A stretch of DNA of 64,000 nucleotides from Granulicella sapmiensis. GTDB lineage: Bacteria; Acidobacteriota; Terriglobia; Terriglobales; Acidobacteriaceae. The notes under the pieces were generated by a model. It made no database searches. It saw only the letters and a list, made by a program, of their open reading frames with translations, and had not been told where the DNA came from. Positions 49,574 to 57,513 of this stretch are shown piece after piece; positions within the stretch are counted from its first letter, which is position 1; the number at the start of each line of letters is the position of its first letter. The position numbers and the translations under genes are program-made. The DNA is taken from NCBI GenBank assembly GCA_026225395.1, contig JAMFSR010000035.1:124001-188000 (forward strand). The letters are read 5' to 3'.

Positions 49574-50326
49574 TTATTTGAGGATGGCGTTCCAGCAGAA
49601 CTGAATCCCGATCACCGAAAGCCAGAGCGACAGCGCCAACCTGAGATTGCGGTTGGGAATTTTGGGCGCGACCGTTGTGCCGACGATCCCGCCAACCACG
49701 CCACCGATCGCCATCTTCACCAGGATGTCGCCGGCATAATGGCCTCCAATCATGTGGACGCCTGTACCAACCAGCGCGATCGCCAGCCCAAACGCAAGAT
49801 CCGTGCCAACCACCTGCGCGGTTTCAAGATTCGTCATGCCGAGCAACGCAACCGTTCCCAATGCACCTGCGCCGGACGACGAAAATCCAACCTCAGCGCC
49901 AATCGGAAACATAATTAGCCCGATCAGCTTTGAGCGGTCTCGTACGGGACGCGCGATGCCCGATGGCTTGAAGTAACGGTAGATGTGCCAACCGGAGGTG
50001 AAGAGAATGATCGCTCCAAGCGCAAACATCAGCGCCTGGCGTGGCCCATGCGCTGCGACATGTTTGAACGCCACCGATCCGATGATCACACCGGGCAGAC
50101 CACCTAGAAGCATGAACCCAAGCACGCGATAGTTCACCTGCTTGCGGACAATCTGGACCGGCACCACGATCAACTTCACAATCGCCGAGTACGCCAGCGC
50201 CGTGCTCACGGCAATCTCCAGCGGAACATGCAGAAACAGAATCAGCAACGGCGCTGTGATTACTCCGGCGCCCACGCCGGTCAACGCGATCACAACGGCA
50301 ATCACAAAGCCGATAACAAAATCCAT
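49574..50326 (-). CDS. TauE/SafE-family anion exporter/permease (in cys operon)
   Basis: MDFVIGFVIAVVIALTGVGAGVITAPLLILFLHVPLEIAVSTAL; 45-bp gap to cysH. Confidence 0.88.
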   Translation of the reverse strand: MDFVIGFVIAVVIALTGVGAGVITAPLLILFLHVPLEIAVSTALAYSAIVKLIVVPVQIVRKQVNYRVLGFMLLGGLPGVIIGSVAFKHVAAHGPRQALMFALGAIILFTSGWHIYRYFKPSGIARPVRDRSKLIGLIMFPIGAEVGFSSSGAGALGTVALLGMTNLETAQVVGTDLAFGLAIALVGTGVHMIGGHYAGDILVKMAIGGVVGGIVGTTVAPKIPNRNLRLALSLWLSVIGIQFCWNAILK

Positions 50327-50371: not shown

Positions 50372-51094
50372 TTACGACTGAATGTGAATTCCGCACTCTT
50401 GCTTTTGCCCCGCCCAGCGGCCCGAACGCGGATCGTTCGGATCAAGCGGCAGGCTTGTACACGGCTCACACCCAATGCTTGTGTAGCCCAGATCGTATAG
50501 CTTCAGCAAGGGAATATTGTTCTCCGCTGCATAGGTCCACACGTCTTTCGTGCTCCACTCAGTAAGCGGACTGATCTTGCGAATCTTCTTTCCTGTCGGC
50601 AGCGCGAAGTCATCGACCTCATGCAACGATGCACGACTCTTGGCCTGCTCGCGCCGCAACCCGGTGAACCACATTACGTAGTTCTCCAGCGAAGCGAACA
50701 GCGGCTTCACCTTGCGCATCCCGCAGCACTTGCCCGGATCGGTTTGGTTCAGTATCCCAAACAACGACTCCTGCTCAGCCACAGTTGTTTCCGGAAGCAG
50801 ATTGATGAGCTTCATCCCCCACTCTGCTGCCATGCGGTCGCGATACTCATACACCTCGGCGAAGTGATAGCCAGTATCGAGAAACACCACCGGCACGTCC
50901 GGCAGAATCGTGCGCACCATGTGCAGCAGCACCATGTCTTCAGCCTGGAAGCTGTTGGTGACGACAATGTCGCCTGCGGCGCTCGCGATCTCGCGGGCGA
51001 CAAGCTCCTTCGCTTCACGCACACGTTCCGCAGTGGTTGGCACTCTCAGCGGTTTCGCGATCTCGACCGGCGCTATGTGCAGTTCTTCGCTCAC
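50372..51094 (-). CDS. cysH: Phosphoadenylyl/adenylyl-sulfate reductase, Cys4-cluster type
   Basis: NSFQAEDMVLLHMV, LDTGYHFAEVYEYRD, KCCGMRKVKPL and GCEPCTSLPL. Confidence 0.95.
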   Translation of the reverse strand: MSEELHIAPVEIAKPLRVPTTAERVREAKELVAREIASAAGDIVVTNSFQAEDMVLLHMVRTILPDVPVVFLDTGYHFAEVYEYRDRMAAEWGMKLINLLPETTVAEQESLFGILNQTDPGKCCGMRKVKPLFASLENYVMWFTGLRREQAKSRASLHEVDDFALPTGKKIRKISPLTEWSTKDVWTYAAENNIPLLKLYDLGYTSIGCEPCTSLPLDPNDPRSGRWAGQKQECGIHIQS

Positions 51095-52716
51095 TTCGCT
51101 CTCCGTTCTTCGGCGTCGAGCACATCGGCAACACGCAACTGCTCCACAAGGTCGCTCACCTTCGCCGTCCCGCGAGCGTTCATAACCGCAAAGCCGCCCG
51201 AGGTCAACGCGGCGTCGGCGTCAGCATCCATCGCTTCTTCCAGCAACACGATCAACCCGAGCGCCAGCAGACCGCGCAGCGTCTTCACCGCGGTCACACG
51301 AGTCCGCACCACAGCGGCGCCCTTGTTCAGCAACGCACGCTCAAGATCGGCAACGAGTGAACCATCGACCAGCACCACCGCAGCCTTATGCTCCGGCCCA
51401 GTTTCAGCCGTAGCGACACCACGGCGAATCATGCCCGCAGCCAGCGTCGCATTGGTATGCGGATCGATGAGGATAAAACTTCCCGAGCCGCGGTTCTCCG
51501 CGTAAGGATCGAAGTACAGCGGTCGCGTCAGTTCAATCTCCGCGACACCAATATCGTTCATCCCAAGCGAATTTACGGCTTCTTCCGCCAGTGTCTGAAT
51601 GTTCGTGCGGTAGAGCACCCGCGTCACGCGGCCGGGCAGCGTCTGCGCGCCATGCTTTACCAGATACGGACGATGTGTCTCTAGCCGCTCTGCATCGAAC
51701 CATACCAGCGATGCCTCGATCGATGTCGCGTGCTGCGGCTTCCGATCAACCTCCGAAATCAAATCGCCGCGGCTGATATCCAGCTCGTCTTCTAGCGTCA
51801 ACGCAATCGATAGCGGCGCGCTTGCTTCTTCCAGATCACCATCGAACGTCGTGATTGACGCCACACGGCTCGTGCGACCGGAGGGCAACGCCAGAATCAG
51901 ATCACCCTTGCGCACCGTACCTGCAGAAATCTGCCCGGCAAACCCGCGATAGTTCTGGTCCGGACGAATCACACGCTGCACGGGCAACCGCAAGGGCTGC
52001 GTAGCCACATCAGTCCACACCGGCACATTCTCCAGATGCTCCAGTAGGGTCGGCCCGCTGTACCAGTCCATGCGCGTCGAACGCTCCACGACGTTATCGC
52101 CTTCGAGTGCGCTCACCGGGATCGTCGTCAGGCTCGCACTGCCAAACGAACCTACAAGCTCGCGGAAGTCATGTTCGATCTTGCGGTAAACCTCTTCCGA
52201 AAAATCGACGAGATCCATCTTGTTGATAGCCGCGACAAGATGCCGCGTCCCCAGCAGCGACGCGATATACGCATGACGCCGCGATTGCACCAAAATTCCC
52301 TTGCGCGCGTCGATCAGAATAATGGCAAGATCCGCCGTGGAAGCACCGGTCGCCATATTGCGCGTGTACTGTTCGTGGCCCGGGGTATCGGCGATGATGA
52401 ACTTCCGTCGCTGCGTCGAAAAATAGCGATACGCCACATCAATCGTGATGCCCTGCTCGCGTTCGGCACGCAACCCATCGGTCAATAACGCGAAGTCGAT
52501 CGTCGGCTTGCGTTCGCCAACCTGTGTACCAGTCACAGCGCTAACCTGGTCTTCATACACGTTGCGCGAGTCGTATAGCAGCCGCCCGATCAGCGTCGAC
52601 TTGCCGTCGTCCACGCTGCCCGCCGTGCTGAAGCGCAGCAGGTCCTTCGCGGCCTCAGCTTCGAGGAATTCTTCAATCGCAAAATCAGTTTCCAATTCCA
52701 GCTCCTCGATCGGCAT
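51091..52716 (-). CDS. cysN: Sulfate adenylyltransferase subunit 1 (GTPase) with C-terminal extension
   Basis: LLRFSTAGSVDDGKSTLIGRLLYDSRNVYEDQ; ITIDVAYRYFSTQRRKFIIADTPGHEQYTRNMATGAS. Confidence 0.95.
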   Translation of the reverse strand: MPIEELELETDFAIEEFLEAEAAKDLLRFSTAGSVDDGKSTLIGRLLYDSRNVYEDQVSAVTGTQVGERKPTIDFALLTDGLRAEREQGITIDVAYRYFSTQRRKFIIADTPGHEQYTRNMATGASTADLAIILIDARKGILVQSRRHAYIASLLGTRHLVAAINKMDLVDFSEEVYRKIEHDFRELVGSFGSASLTTIPVSALEGDNVVERSTRMDWYSGPTLLEHLENVPVWTDVATQPLRLPVQRVIRPDQNYRGFAGQISAGTVRKGDLILALPSGRTSRVASITTFDGDLEEASAPLSIALTLEDELDISRGDLISEVDRKPQHATSIEASLVWFDAERLETHRPYLVKHGAQTLPGRVTRVLYRTNIQTLAEEAVNSLGMNDIGVAEIELTRPLYFDPYAENRGSGSFILIDPHTNATLAAGMIRRGVATAETGPEHKAAVVLVDGSLVADLERALLNKGAAVVRTRVTAVKTLRGLLALGLIVLLEEAMDADADAALTSGGFAVMNARGTAKVSDLVEQLRVADVLDAEERRAK

Positions 52717-53673
52717 TTAGAAATACCCCTCGCGCTTCTTGATCTCCATGGAGCCATCTGTGTCGTGGTCGATCACGCGGTTCGCACGCTCCGACGAGCG
52801 GAAGCTCACCAGTTCCGCAATGATCTTGGGAATCGTGTCGGCTTCCGATCGGATCGCGCCCGTGCAAGGGCTGCATCCCAGCGACCGCAGCCGCGACTTC
52901 ACCATCTGCTCTTCACCCGGCAAGCTTTGCACAAAGCTTTGCTCAACGGGGATCAGGCTGTCCGCCCGCACGATCATCTTGCGTTCTTTCGCGAAGTACA
53001 ACGGAACGACCGGAATATCCTCAAGCGCGATGTAGTGCCAGATGTCGAGCTCCGTCCAGTTCGAAAGCGGAAATACGCGAATGCTTTCGCCCGGCGAAAT
53101 ACGCGCGTTGTACAGATTCCAAACCTCAGGCCGCTGGTTTTTCGGGTCCCACTGGCCGGCCTTGTCGCGGAAGGAGAAGATGCGCTCCTTCGCGCGCGAC
53201 TTCTCTTCATCGCGCCGGGCCCCACCAAAGGCTGCATCGAAGCCCCACTCGCGCAGGCCATCGAGCAGTGCGGTTGTCTTCAACAAACCACAGCAACGCT
53301 GTGTTCCCAGCGTTACAGGATTGGCGCCATCGGCCAGTGCCTGCTCATTACGCCACACGCGCAGGTCGAGCCCGAGTTCCTTCGCCATCTGATCGCGGAA
53401 CGCGATCATTTCGTGGAACTTGTAGCCGGTATCGATGTGCAGCAGCGGAAATGGAATCGGCCCTGGAAAGAAAGCCTTCTGTGCCAGCCGCAGCATCACG
53501 CTGGAGTCCTTGCCAATCGAGTACAGCATCACTGGCTTCTGGAACTCAGCCGCTACCTCGCGGAAGATCTGGATGCTCTCGGCCTCCAGCAACTTCAAAT
53601 GACTCAACCGCTTGCCGGTTGAGTCAGGGATCGCCGCTTCGCTGCTCGGCTCGAAACTGGATAATGTCGCCAT
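52717..53673 (-). CDS. cysD: Sulfate adenylyltransferase subunit 2
   Basis: [64 protein letters not shown]; probable start MATLSS at 53673, leaving a 110-bp leader after the Cys-rich ORF. Confidence 0.96.
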
Positions 53674-53717
53674 AGGTACTCGATAAACCTTCGTGGAACT
53701 GCCCCGCAGGGCAAATA

Positions 53718-53750
53718 CAAAACCCACTCATCCGATGTCGGAAGGTGGGT
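53718..53750 (-). terminator. Attenuator-type hairpin between Cys-rich leader ORF and cysD
   Basis: Reverse strand ACCCAC-ct-TCCGA-ca-TCGGA-tga-GTGGGT followed by TTTGTATTTG. Confidence 0.75.
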
Positions 53751-53783
53751 GCTTGACTCTTGATTGTCGTGATCGGCTAAAAG

Positions 53784-53870
53784 CTATCGACAAATGCACC
53801 CGCTGGAATATGCCAGACAGCAACAGCAGTTGCAGTTCAACACACACGCGCAGATGCGACAATTTGCCAT
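53784..53870 (-). CDS. Cysteine-rich leader peptide upstream of cysDNH: MANCRICACVLNCNCCCCLAYSSGCICR
   Basis: ATG GCA AAT TGT CGC ATC TGC GCG TGT GTG TTG AAC TGC AAC TGC TGT TGC TGT CTG GCA TAT TCC AGC GGG TGC ATT TGT CGA TAG; 10 Cys/28 with a CCCC run; below the ORF-track length cutoff. Confidence 0.8.
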   Translation of the reverse strand: MANCRICACVLNCNCCCCLAYSSGCICR

Positions 53871-53894
53871 TCCTTTAAGCCTGAACGACCCAGC

Positions 53895-53910
53895 TTGATT
53901 TGTCAATCAA
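53895..53910. promoter_or_regulatory. Dyad TTGATT-tgtc-AATCAA between divergent leaders
   Basis: 6-bp perfect inverted repeat with 4-nt spacer in the shared promoter region. Confidence 0.5.
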
Positions 53911-54100: not shown

Positions 54101-54126
54101 AAACCCACGCCAACCGCGTGGGTTTT
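54101..54126 (+). terminator. Attenuator-type hairpin AAACCCACGC-CAACC-GCGTGGGTTT-T
   Basis: 10-bp perfect stem, 5-nt loop, short T-run; between the leader ORF and the receptor gene. Confidence 0.7.
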
Positions 54127-54154
54127 GCACTTTCACACAACGTTCGACTCCACT

Positions 54155-54217
54155 ATGAATCGTTTCTCCAACCCGCGAAACTGCCCGCAGACCTCAACAG
54201 CCATGAGCTGTTGTTGA
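54155..54217 (+). CDS. Possible second short leader ORF ending in CC: MNRFSNPRNCPQTSTAMSCC
   Basis: ORF terminates TGT TGT TGA; hairpin CAACAGC-CATGA-GCTGTTG (54195-54213) overlaps the terminal Cys codons. Confidence 0.4.
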   Translation: MNRFSNPRNCPQTSTAMSCC

Positions 54218-54318
54218 GTCGTGAGCCCGCACGCCTTCGTCTTCTCCCTCTTGTTTTCAACTTTCAACCAGTAATGCGCAACCGTTCGCGTCCTTTGTTT
54301 CATCTTCAGGAGATTGTC

Positions 54319-57300
54319 TTGTCTACGCCGTTTCGTTCGCTCGCCCTTGCCGCTTTAGCCGTTTTCACCTCTGCCACTCTTTCCGCCCAGGTCGTCAACG
54401 GCACTATCTCCGGCACCGTCACTGACCCCAGTGGTGCGCTCGTCCCCCACGCTCACGTGCTCGTCCACAACGACGACACAGGCGTCCAGCGCACATTAAC
54501 TACCGGCAACGAAGGCACCTTCGCCGCACCGGCAATCCCTATCGGCTTCTACACGGTCACGGCAGAATCCCCCAGCTTTGCCGCCTACAAGCGCACTGGG
54601 ATATCGCTTACCGTTGGCCAGACGCTCAATCTCACGCTCGCGCTGTCTCTCTCTGGTTCGGACACCGTCACCGTCACGGACGTTCCCTCCACCGTGAACA
54701 CCTCTGTCGACCAGACCTCCGGCCTTGTCGATTCGCGACAGGTGAAAGAGCTTCCGCTCAACGGCCGCAGCTACGATCAGCTCCTCCAGCTCAATCCCGG
54801 CGTAGTCAACTACACCAACCAGCGCTCCGGCAGCGTTGGCACATCGAACTCCTCGGTCGGCAGCATGTTCTCCATCTCCGGCCGCCGCCCGCAGGACAAT
54901 CTCTTCCTGCTCAACGGCATCGAGTACACCGGCGCCTCGCTCATCAACACCACCCCCGGCGGCACCTCCGGCCAGCTGCTCGGCATAGATGGCATTCACG
55001 AGTTCAACGTCGTCACCGACACCTACTCCGCCTCCTACGGCAAACGCGACGGCGCACAGATATCCATCGCCACCACCGGCGGCACCAACAAGCTCCACGG
55101 CAGCGTCTACGACTTCGAGCGCAACAGCTTCTTCGACGCCCGTAACTACTTCGACGGCGCCCGGATCCCTGAGTTCCAGCGCGACAACTACGGCGCGGCC
55201 CTCGGTGGCCCCATCAAAAAGGACAAGCTCTTTCTCTTCGCCAACTACGAAGGCTACCGCCAGAACCTCGGTGAATCCATCGCCGCTCTCGTTCCTGACG
55301 CTACTTCGCGCGCCCACGCTGTCGCCAGCGTCCAGCCACTTCTCAACCTCTGGCCTGTTGCCAACGGCCCCGAAAGCGCCACGGCGGCCGGAGTCGCGCT
55401 CTACACCGGTTCAGCCCCTCAGCACATTCGCGAAGACTTCGGCACGAGCCGCTTCGACTACAACATCAACCAGAACGACACCTTCAACACCATTTACACC
55501 ATCGACGACTCCTTCGCGTCCAGCCCCTCCGCCGATCCGTTCTCCTACGTCAATGAATCCTTGCGCGAACAGGTTCTCAGCGCACAGGAGCAGCATGTCT
55601 TCTCTCCGCGCCTCATCAACGTAGCCCGCGTCGGTTTCTCCCGGTCCAAGTTTTATTTCTACGGATACGTCCCCGCCGCCGAGCAAGCTCTCGCACCGTC
55701 GGTTCGCCCCGGCATACCCACCTATGCCATCGTCATCGCCGGTTCAACAGCTTCGAACGGCCCGGCATCCATCGCCACCGCAGGCGCCAATGTCGGTTCT
55801 AACAACGGCATCACCCGCAACATCTACACCTTCGACGACCACGCCTACTACACCATCGGCAAGCACACCTTCCAGGCAGGCATCTGGCTACAGCGCCTGC
55901 AGTCCAACGACAACCTCGCGCAGGATCAGTACGGTCAGGCCTCCTTCGCTTCGGTAGCAACCTTCCTTACGGGAACCATCAAGACCTTCACCTACGCACC
56001 CGCGACCACCGAGCTCAACTGGCACACGCTCTTCGCCGACGCCTTCATCGAGGACGTCTACCACATCACTCCTCGCCTCCAGATCCGCGCCGGCTTCCGT
56101 TCAGAATCCTCCACCGGTTGGAGCGAAGCCCACGACCGCTCCTCCGTTTACACCTTCAACTCCGCCGGCGTCATCTCCACCAACCCCACTCCCGGCCTCT
56201 CGAACGCCCTCACCAACAACCACGGCCTCTTCCTGCCCGAGCCCCGTCTCGGCATCGCCTGGAACGTCTTCGGCAACGGTCGCACCAGCGTCACGTCCGG
56301 CGTGGGCTTCCACCACTCGCTCCTCGACGCGCTCGACTACCGCCTCGATCAAGCAGCTCCCTACAACACCGTCTACTCCTACTCCGGCACCACAGTGGCT
56401 AATCCCACCAGCGGCACCGGCCTCGTTTCGCCCTCCACCATCGACACCGGCATCCGCACCCCCACGCTGTTATCCTACGACCTAAAAATCGAGCAACAGC
56501 TCGCTCCCGCCACCGCTATCAGCATTGGCTACAGCGGCTCCCACAGCTACCACCAGATCATGAACGGCGATCTCAACGAGCCCGCCTACACTCTCGTCAA
56601 CGGCTCCGTCTTCTACCCGGCCGCCGGAACTCCCGCTGTGCCCGCAGCCCCCATCAAGGCCAACCCCGCTGTCGCCAACACCACCTCCTGGTGGTCCGGC
56701 GCTTCCGGCAACTACAACGCCCTCATCGTCGACTTCCGCCACGACCTCTCACACGGCCTACAGTTCCGCGCCAACTATACCTGGTCCAAGAACCTCGACG
56801 ACGGCTCAGCCTGGAACACCTCCGTCTCCGCCAACACGCCCGCCTTCGTCGAAGTTCCTTCGCTCCCTCACCTCGACTACGGCCCCGCGGCTACGGACAT
56901 CCGTCAGCTCGCAGCCTTCAACACCAGCTACGATCTTCCTTTCGGCGCAGGTAGGGAATTCTTATCGAGCACCAATCACGTTGTCAGCCACGTCATCTCT
57001 GGCTGGACTCTCTCCTCCATCGCTAACCTCGCTACCGGCACCCCCTTCAGCCCGCAACTCGGCTACAACCCCACCGGCTCCGGCGATAGCCGCAACCCAG
57101 TCCGTCCCGACGTCAACCCGGGCTTCACCGGCTCGCTGTACAACCACGGCAGCACAGCCTCGAAGGTCACCCAGTACTTCAACCCAGCAAAGTTCTCCGC
57201 ACCCAAGGCTGGCTACGTGGGCGACTCCGGTCGCGACAACCTCGTCGGTCCAGCCTTTGCCGACTGGGATCTTTCGCTCCTGAAGTCCACCCAGATCACC

Positions 57301-57513
57301 GAAGCCGCTCGCCTGCAGTTCCGCGCCGAGTTCTTCAATGTCCTCAACCACACCAACCTCGGCCTTCCCAACGAGGTCGTTTACTCCAACGGCCCCACGC
57401 AAGGCACACTCACCAGCCAGAACACGGCCGCTGCGCTCGGCTCACCAGGCAACATCACCTCCACCGCCAATACCAGCCGCCAAATCCAGCTGGGCTTGAA
57501 GCTTCTCTTCTAA
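54319..57513 (+). CDS. TonB-dependent receptor with N-terminal carboxypeptidase-regulatory-like domain (Oar-like)
   Basis: TTG start after AGGAG RBS giving LSTPFRSLALAALAVFTSATLSAQVVNGTISGTVTDPSGALVPHAHVLV; plug region VKELPLNGRSYDQLLQLNPGVV; C-terminal QIQLGLKLLF. The upstream in-frame ATG at 54118 lies inside the hairpin and is unlikely to be used. Confidence 0.9.
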   Translation: MSTPFRSLALAALAVFTSATLSAQVVNGTISGTVTDPSGALVPHAHVLVHNDDTGVQRTLTTGNEGTFAAPAIPIGFYTVTAESPSFAAYKRTGISLTVGQTLNLTLALSLSGSDTVTVTDVPSTVNTSVDQTSGLVDSRQVKELPLNGRSYDQLLQLNPGVVNYTNQRSGSVGTSNSSVGSMFSISGRRPQDNLFLLNGIEYTGASLINTTPGGTSGQLLGIDGIHEFNVVTDTYSASYGKRDGAQISIATTGGTNKLHGSVYDFERNSFFDARNYFDGARIPEFQRDNYGAALGGPIKKDKLFLFANYEGYRQNLGESIAALVPDATSRAHAVASVQPLLNLWPVANGPESATAAGVALYTGSAPQHIREDFGTSRFDYNINQNDTFNTIYTIDDSFASSPSADPFSYVNESLREQVLSAQEQHVFSPRLINVARVGFSRSKFYFYGYVPAAEQALAPSVRPGIPTYAIVIAGSTASNGPASIATAGANVGSNNGITRNIYTFDDHAYYTIGKHTFQAGIWLQRLQSNDNLAQDQYGQASFASVATFLTGTIKTFTYAPATTELNWHTLFADAFIEDVYHITPRLQIRAGFRSESSTGWSEAHDRSSVYTFNSAGVISTNPTPGLSNALTNNHGLFLPEPRLGIAWNVFGNGRTSVTSGVGFHHSLLDALDYRLDQAAPYNTVYSYSGTTVANPTSGTGLVSPSTIDTGIRTPTLLSYDLKIEQQLAPATAISIGYSGSHSYHQIMNGDLNEPAYTLVNGSVFYPAAGTPAVPAAPIKANPAVANTTSWWSGASGNYNALIVDFRHDLSHGLQFRANYTWSKNLDDGSAWNTSVSANTPAFVEVPSLPHLDYGPAATDIRQLAAFNTSYDLPFGAGREFLSSTNHVVSHVISGWTLSSIANLATGTPFSPQLGYNPTGSGDSRNPVRPDVNPGFTGSLYNHGSTASKVTQYFNPAKFSAPKAGYVGDSGRDNLVGPAFADWDLSLLKSTQITEAARLQFRAEFFNVLNHTNLGLPNEVVYSNGPTQGTLTSQNTAAALGSPGNITSTANTSRQIQLGLKLLF

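Follow-up and report, generated by a model that had tools for sequence, protein, structure and literature searches.

It is likely, with a probability of roughly 0.84, that the cysDNH operon in the window (the whole stretch of 64,000 nt that was analysed) is controlled by a cysteine-responsive, ribosome-mediated transcription attenuator. The terminator/antiterminator arrangement proposed in the preliminary description of this DNA is supported by comparison with relatives, in which leader, terminator and complementarity recur together, and also by a promoter placed at the leader start codon and the absence of a sense gene upstream. The sequence elements (Table 1) are present in the window and are conserved together in relatives. 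CysD, CysN and CysH were identified as the products of the downstream genes, with the cysD ATG where it had been placed before, and a gene for a TauE/SafE-family membrane protein is the last in the run. The other flank of cysD carries a gene for a TonB-type outer membrane protein (54118-57513) in the opposite direction; since it is antiparallel to cysD, the region upstream of cysD has no sense gene, so that the hairpin found there cannot serve as the end of such a gene, which fits an attenuator. On the plus strand at 54101-54126, before the TonB-type gene, lies a near-perfect inverted repeat, AAACCCACGC..GCGTGGGTTT, then T, overlapped by a sub-threshold Rfam match to Leu_leader (E 0.18). The Rfam search of the cysD upstream region gave nothing above the gathering score and three sub-threshold matches, all on the opposite strand, and no leader family, riboswitch or T-box reached the cut-off there. 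CysN has about 110 extra residues at its C-terminus (51091-51420) without any Pfam domain match, and as the CysN/CysC bifunctional model scored under its cut-off on CysN, an APS kinase domain is not evident.

Table 1. Features of the cysDNH locus in the window, with the sulfite reductase leader locus of the same genome
Feature	Position	Strand	Basis or remark
-35 element TTGACA	53901..53906	-	sequence; TTGACA aligned in close relatives
Putative -10-like hexamer CAGGCT, weak match	53878..53883	-	17-nt spacer; 7 nt to leader ATG
Cys-rich leader ORF MANCRICACVLNCNCCCCLAYSSGCICR and stop, probably leaderless	53784..53870	-	translation, relatives, promoter position
Strand 1 GCATCTGC, candidate protector arm, pairs with GCGGGTGC	53850..53857	-	minimum-free-energy fold
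Four Cys codons TGC TGT TGC TGT (codons 15-18), predicted stall site	53817..53828	-	
Strand 2 GCGGGTGC, antiterminator 5' arm within codons 23-25	53796..53803	-	GGGTGC = 53801-53796
Antiterminator helix 2, 5' arm TTGTCG, directly before leader stop	53788..53793	-	relatives pair with other bases
Antiterminator helix 2, 3' arm CGACAA	53764..53769	-	
Strand 3 GCACCC	53747..53752	-	pairs with GGGTGC (antiterminator) or sits in terminator 5' arm
Terminator-like hairpin and tail TTTGTATTTG	53712..53750	-	-17.6 kcal/mol; sequence, fold, relatives
cysD, sulfate adenylyltransferase small subunit	52717..53673	-	ATG at 53673
cysN, sulfate adenylyltransferase large subunit	51091..52716	-	
cysH, (P)APS reductase	50372..51094	-	
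TauE/SafE-family membrane protein, final gene in run	49574..50326	-	
Sulfite reductase leader locus (L262)	G000:C7 near 104098-104577		

Translation of 53870-53784 on the reverse strand agrees with the earlier account of a 28-codon ORF upstream of cysD with 10 Cys, four of them encoded by consecutive codons, and places its stop codon at 53786-53784. The density of the leader, 6 Cys per 10 codons, was reached in 0 of 5000 dinucleotide shuffles of the upstream region, and 5 Cys per 10 codons in 7 of 5000. Across 52 loci the leader Cys codons are divided into 214 TGT and 87 TGC, as compared with 8 TGT and 231 TGC in cysD of the same loci, and the window leader itself uses the two equally (5:5); this preference of the leaders for a synonymous codon that is otherwise rare points to selection on decoding and not on the peptide. 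Relatives carry CATCCT, CACGCT and CACCCT in the same placement as the -10-like hexamer of the window, and a promoter-like pair that scores at least 8/12 and whose -10 stops 2-10 nt short of the start codon precedes 47/68 leaders, a promoter score of at least 8/12 being attained at 2.9% of background positions. Because the promoter abuts the start codon, ending 6-10 nt ahead of it, transcription is expected to begin at or near it, and the leader mRNA, judged by promoter position alone, is probably leaderless. A transcription start downstream of 53784, which the preliminary description had named as evidence against an attenuator, is not what is predicted; the predicted start is the leader start codon. 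For Acidobacteria, the share of leaderless genes has been put at about 13% (PMC3160421).

The hairpin ACCCAC-ct-TCCGA-ca-TCGGA-tga-GTGGGT lies at 53750-53722, 33 nt past the leader stop, and its tail at 53721-53712; its location and sequence had been given correctly, but the tail had been cut too short at 53718 and runs on to 53712. Its U tract is interrupted in the window (TTTTGTATTTG) and stronger in relatives, the nearest of which have canonical terminators (GAGTGGGTTTTCTTTTT), and a hairpin of -12 kcal/mol or below ending in a U tract follows the leader in 42/68 cases (6.6 in shuffles). The intrinsic terminator that attenuators of the trp type have downstream of the leader ORF and ahead of the first gene is found both in the window, with its interrupted T tail, and in these 42 of 68 relatives. 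Some same-genus relatives have a Cys leader and no visible terminator, so the terminator is not universal; in four same-genus regions upstream of cysD (L010, L012, L013, L028) the leaders are short, with CPxxFGCC or similar directly before the stop and no terminator visible, and leaders of this ending without a terminator may act via a different control route. Such leaders, together with the imperfect U tract of the window and the mycobacterial leaders that lack a terminator (PMC1262725) and are termed translation attenuators (PMC13236596), speak for the rival idea that a cysteine-responsive leader acts on cysD translation or via Rho and that the hairpin is incidental, or a pause or processing site. 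This is improbable, though the best of the alternatives, given that the nearest relatives carry canonical terminators, that terminators exceed shuffle expectation, and that the window hairpin stops about 50 nt short of the cysD ATG, leaving ATG and SD uncovered.

Transcription attenuation further calls for a strand that competes for the 5' arm of the terminator. The exact complementarity between GGGTGC and GCACCC, the latter overlapping that arm, is found as first described; in the window alone these 6 nt are not significant (p = 0.13 against shuffles), and the pairing is convincing only through its recurrence in relatives. When the stretch from the Cys run to just past the stop was compared with the terminator 5' arm at 47 terminator-bearing loci, 23 paired better than their own shuffles (p<=0.05), and the combined p of 8e-20 is overstated because many of the tested loci are related. 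Strong cases are CCGAGGGCGG/CCGCCCTCGG in the cysD set (L165) and GGGTACTCGG/CCGAGTGCCC before a sulfite reductase gene (L269). In close relatives the pairing of helix 2 is kept as the bases change, from TTGTCG/CGACAA in the window to GCGTGTTG/CAACACGT in L006, CGTGTTG/CAGCACG in L007, GTTGCC/GGCAAC in L221 and GTGTTG/CAATAC in L112. A competing antiterminator strand of the trp type is thus seen across the set and in the pair changes of helix 2, the window alone not being significant.

When the RNA is cut before the terminator 3' arm, the antiterminator GGGTGC:GCACCC is the best fold both for the window and for the relatives closest to it, and most of these nascent folds also have helix 2 behind it; for the window alone the nascent pairing is equalled by 10% of shuffles and is not significant. 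The full-length fold of the window contains a protector-like stem, GCATCTGC:GCGGGTGC. At equilibrium the terminator is favoured in all ribosome states in most members (window 0.90 with the ribosome stalled, 0.78 with it at the stop), stalled and terminating ribosomes alike, as against the antiterminator favoured in the nascent fold before the 3' arm is made. Thermodynamics alone was rejected as proof of switching, the equilibrium folds with a stalled, a terminating or no ribosome showing no switch in most members. Since equilibrium favours the terminator in most members, the switch would have to be kinetic, with the antiterminator forming first, co-transcriptional folding being assumed.

The positions also fit: judged by the general ribosome footprint, a ribosome stalled at codons 15-18 would leave GGGTGC exposed, and one at the stop codon would hide it. 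In the proposed mechanism, transcription by RNA polymerase would begin on the leader ATG itself or no more than a few nt away from it, giving a leaderless or nearly leaderless mRNA on which a ribosome would load. Were Cys-tRNA scarce, the ribosome would stall at codons 15-18 and leave GGGUGC and UUGUCG uncovered; their pairing with GCACCC and CGACAA would capture the 5' arm of the terminator, and transcription would read through into cysD. With ample cysteine, a ribosome at UAG would mask GGGUGC and UUGUCG and the terminator (53750-53712) would form; with the ribosome absent, GCAUCUGC may pair with GCGGGUGC, and the terminator would be free once more.

The survey of how widely these elements recur covered 138 different regions upstream of cysD, the majority of them from Acidobacteriota. 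ORFs with at least 3, 4, 5 and 6 Cys per 10 codons occur in 70, 51, 32 and 18 of them, as against 10.6, 1.1, 0.08 and 0 in shuffles and 4, 0, 0 and 0 in a reverse-strand control on the same regions; at least 4 Cys per 10 codons were found in 1/43 cysD loci drawn almost entirely from other phyla. Every cysD locus examined from the Acidobacteriaceae has a leader (22/22, the window and G019 included), as do 2/8 outside the family, a tally over the cysD loci examined in a draw of 247 genomes of the phylum; Granulicella sp. dw_53, Acidobacterium sp. S8 and Terriglobus albidus are among the relatives. In same-genus genomes G007, G016 and G015 the leaders MVMHRTPACLTCCSCCCQACSCGCACCR, MVFSRTFANTSCCSCCCQACICGCACCR and MIMHCTPACLTCCSCCCQACPCGVHVLSIGF, respectively, occupy the same place as that of the window and are followed by terminators of the GCACCCACTC..GAGTGGGTTTTCTTTTT type. 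The preliminary description had proposed looking before cysD in other Acidobacteria for Cys-rich ORFs with hairpins, and had counted a lack of conservation in close relatives against its own reading; ORF and hairpin recur together in diverged relatives, and in close ones both the Cys codons and the hairpin are kept.

Outside the Cys codons, leader sequence has diverged almost completely among relatives, the distant Acidobacteriota having leader families such as SCC(C/R)LSNIFDGC, CCACCCxxRRTxG, ACCCCR and CCCCDKCC, among others. One of these (L033, L036, L039, L126-L137, L177, L233) has a nearly invariant SCC(C/R)LSNIFDGC end and a poor U tract on its second hairpin, and its codons, GACGGGTGT included, are apparently held by RNA pairing. 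L007 (G015) has one additional G directly behind the Cys run, by which the last part of the leader is put into another frame and the RNA elements are left intact. The very high Cys content, with its CC and CxC motifs, might suggest a functional metal- or redox-binding peptide whose proximity to cysD is operonic and not regulatory, which is very unlikely considering that non-Cys sequence is not conserved between families, that the C-terminal codons track RNA pairing (GGGTGC being read as S-G-C or D-G-C), that the 1-nt insertion in L007 changes the peptide end and spares the Cys run and RNA elements, and that a preference for rare TGT bears on decoding and not on a peptide. Least probable of all is that a Cys-rich ORF arose by chance next to an unrelated hairpin, for which the shortness of the region and the non-significant pairing of the window by itself might be cited, against the recurrence in relatives measured by shuffle, reverse-strand and cysK controls and the single such ORF in 43 loci from mostly other phyla.

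The putative attenuator arrangement extends to sulfite reductase, whose genes across genus and family have leaderless Cys-rich leaders and terminators of their own. In the same genome the gene for this enzyme (PF01077) has a leader, MKFSLGFPLIFSSAACCLCPCTWAHSVAV, with a promoter right before it and a terminator, GCGCCCACGA..TCGTGGGCCTTTT; among the sulfite reductase loci of the genus and family (L250-L274, L357-L385), leader and terminator are found at 17 loci of the genus, and a leader at about 17/29 loci of other genera of the family, with eight consecutive Cys codons in L383. No comparable leader was found at 30 cysK loci (0/30) or at SulP sulfate transporter loci, and searches for poly-Cys codons in the window's own genome and for a pattern of promoter, ATG and TGYTGY returned mostly noise. 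At G000:C9:10889-10957 (L324) a promoter is followed by MSSFALRRCCCRQHPLAG, a possible in-frame Cys leader before a small secreted protein, with no terminator seen. With less assurance than for the cysDNH operon itself, we favour the broader proposition that throughout the Acidobacteriaceae, and patchily elsewhere in Acidobacteriota, a sulfate-assimilation and sulfite-reductase regulon is under leaderless polycysteine transcription attenuators, which would have originated separately from mycobacterial leaders and would have kept their Cys codons (preferably rare UGU) and competing-helix logic as peptide and RNA sequence were rebuilt in each lineage.

Amino-acid attenuators as such are textbook biology. 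As in the trp, his, leu, ilv and phe leaders of enterobacteria, regulatory codons are followed here by an antiterminator strand near the leader end and by a terminator upstream of the first gene, with a candidate protector hairpin; unlike in those systems, it is cysteine that is proposed to be sensed and initiation is predicted to be leaderless. The short leader ORF rich in end-product codons that marks the trp type is present before cysDNH (10 Cys in 28 codons) and recurs in relatives. Leaving aside Lopatovskaya et al. (2010), who may list Acidobacteria cys attenuators, we know of no cysteine-specific attenuator that uses a terminator.

In mycobacteria, polycysteine leaderless short ORFs precede cysteine-biosynthesis genes (Canestrari et al., 2020, doi 10.1111/mmi.14498, as relayed in PMC9094748, PMC9031893 and PMC13236596), and the cysteine attenuation by such ORFs that the preliminary description had mentioned is indeed on record, as translation attenuation (PMC13236596, PMC9031893). 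The mycobacterial leaders are like the present one in being leaderless short ORFs (as predicted here from promoter position only) with consecutive Cys codons, in which cysteine is thought to set ribosome speed. They differ in attenuating translation without a terminator, in contrast to the intrinsic terminator and competing antiterminator found here, and they belong to another phylum and have unrelated sequences; given the terminator, the present system is similar in its working to the mycobacterial polycysteine attenuators, yet is not classed as a member. Cys-run leaders have also been predicted before sulfur-assimilation genes in acnes and, for cbs, in B. longum, where conserved terminator hairpins were not found and Rho was suggested (Seliverstov et al., 2005, PMC1262725); these actinobacterial leaders share with the present ones a Cys run and a place ahead of sulfur-assimilation genes, and the conserved terminator sets the present ones apart. 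Predicted attenuators in Acidobacteria have hardly ever been assigned functions (PMC2965389). If the proposed attenuator is real, the phylum would gain a named nutrient switch, the evolution of RNA switches could be studied on a series of attenuators rewired by nature, a single case would bring together transcription attenuation and leaderless translation, and the setting of sulfur assimilation in abundant soil bacteria would become predictable.
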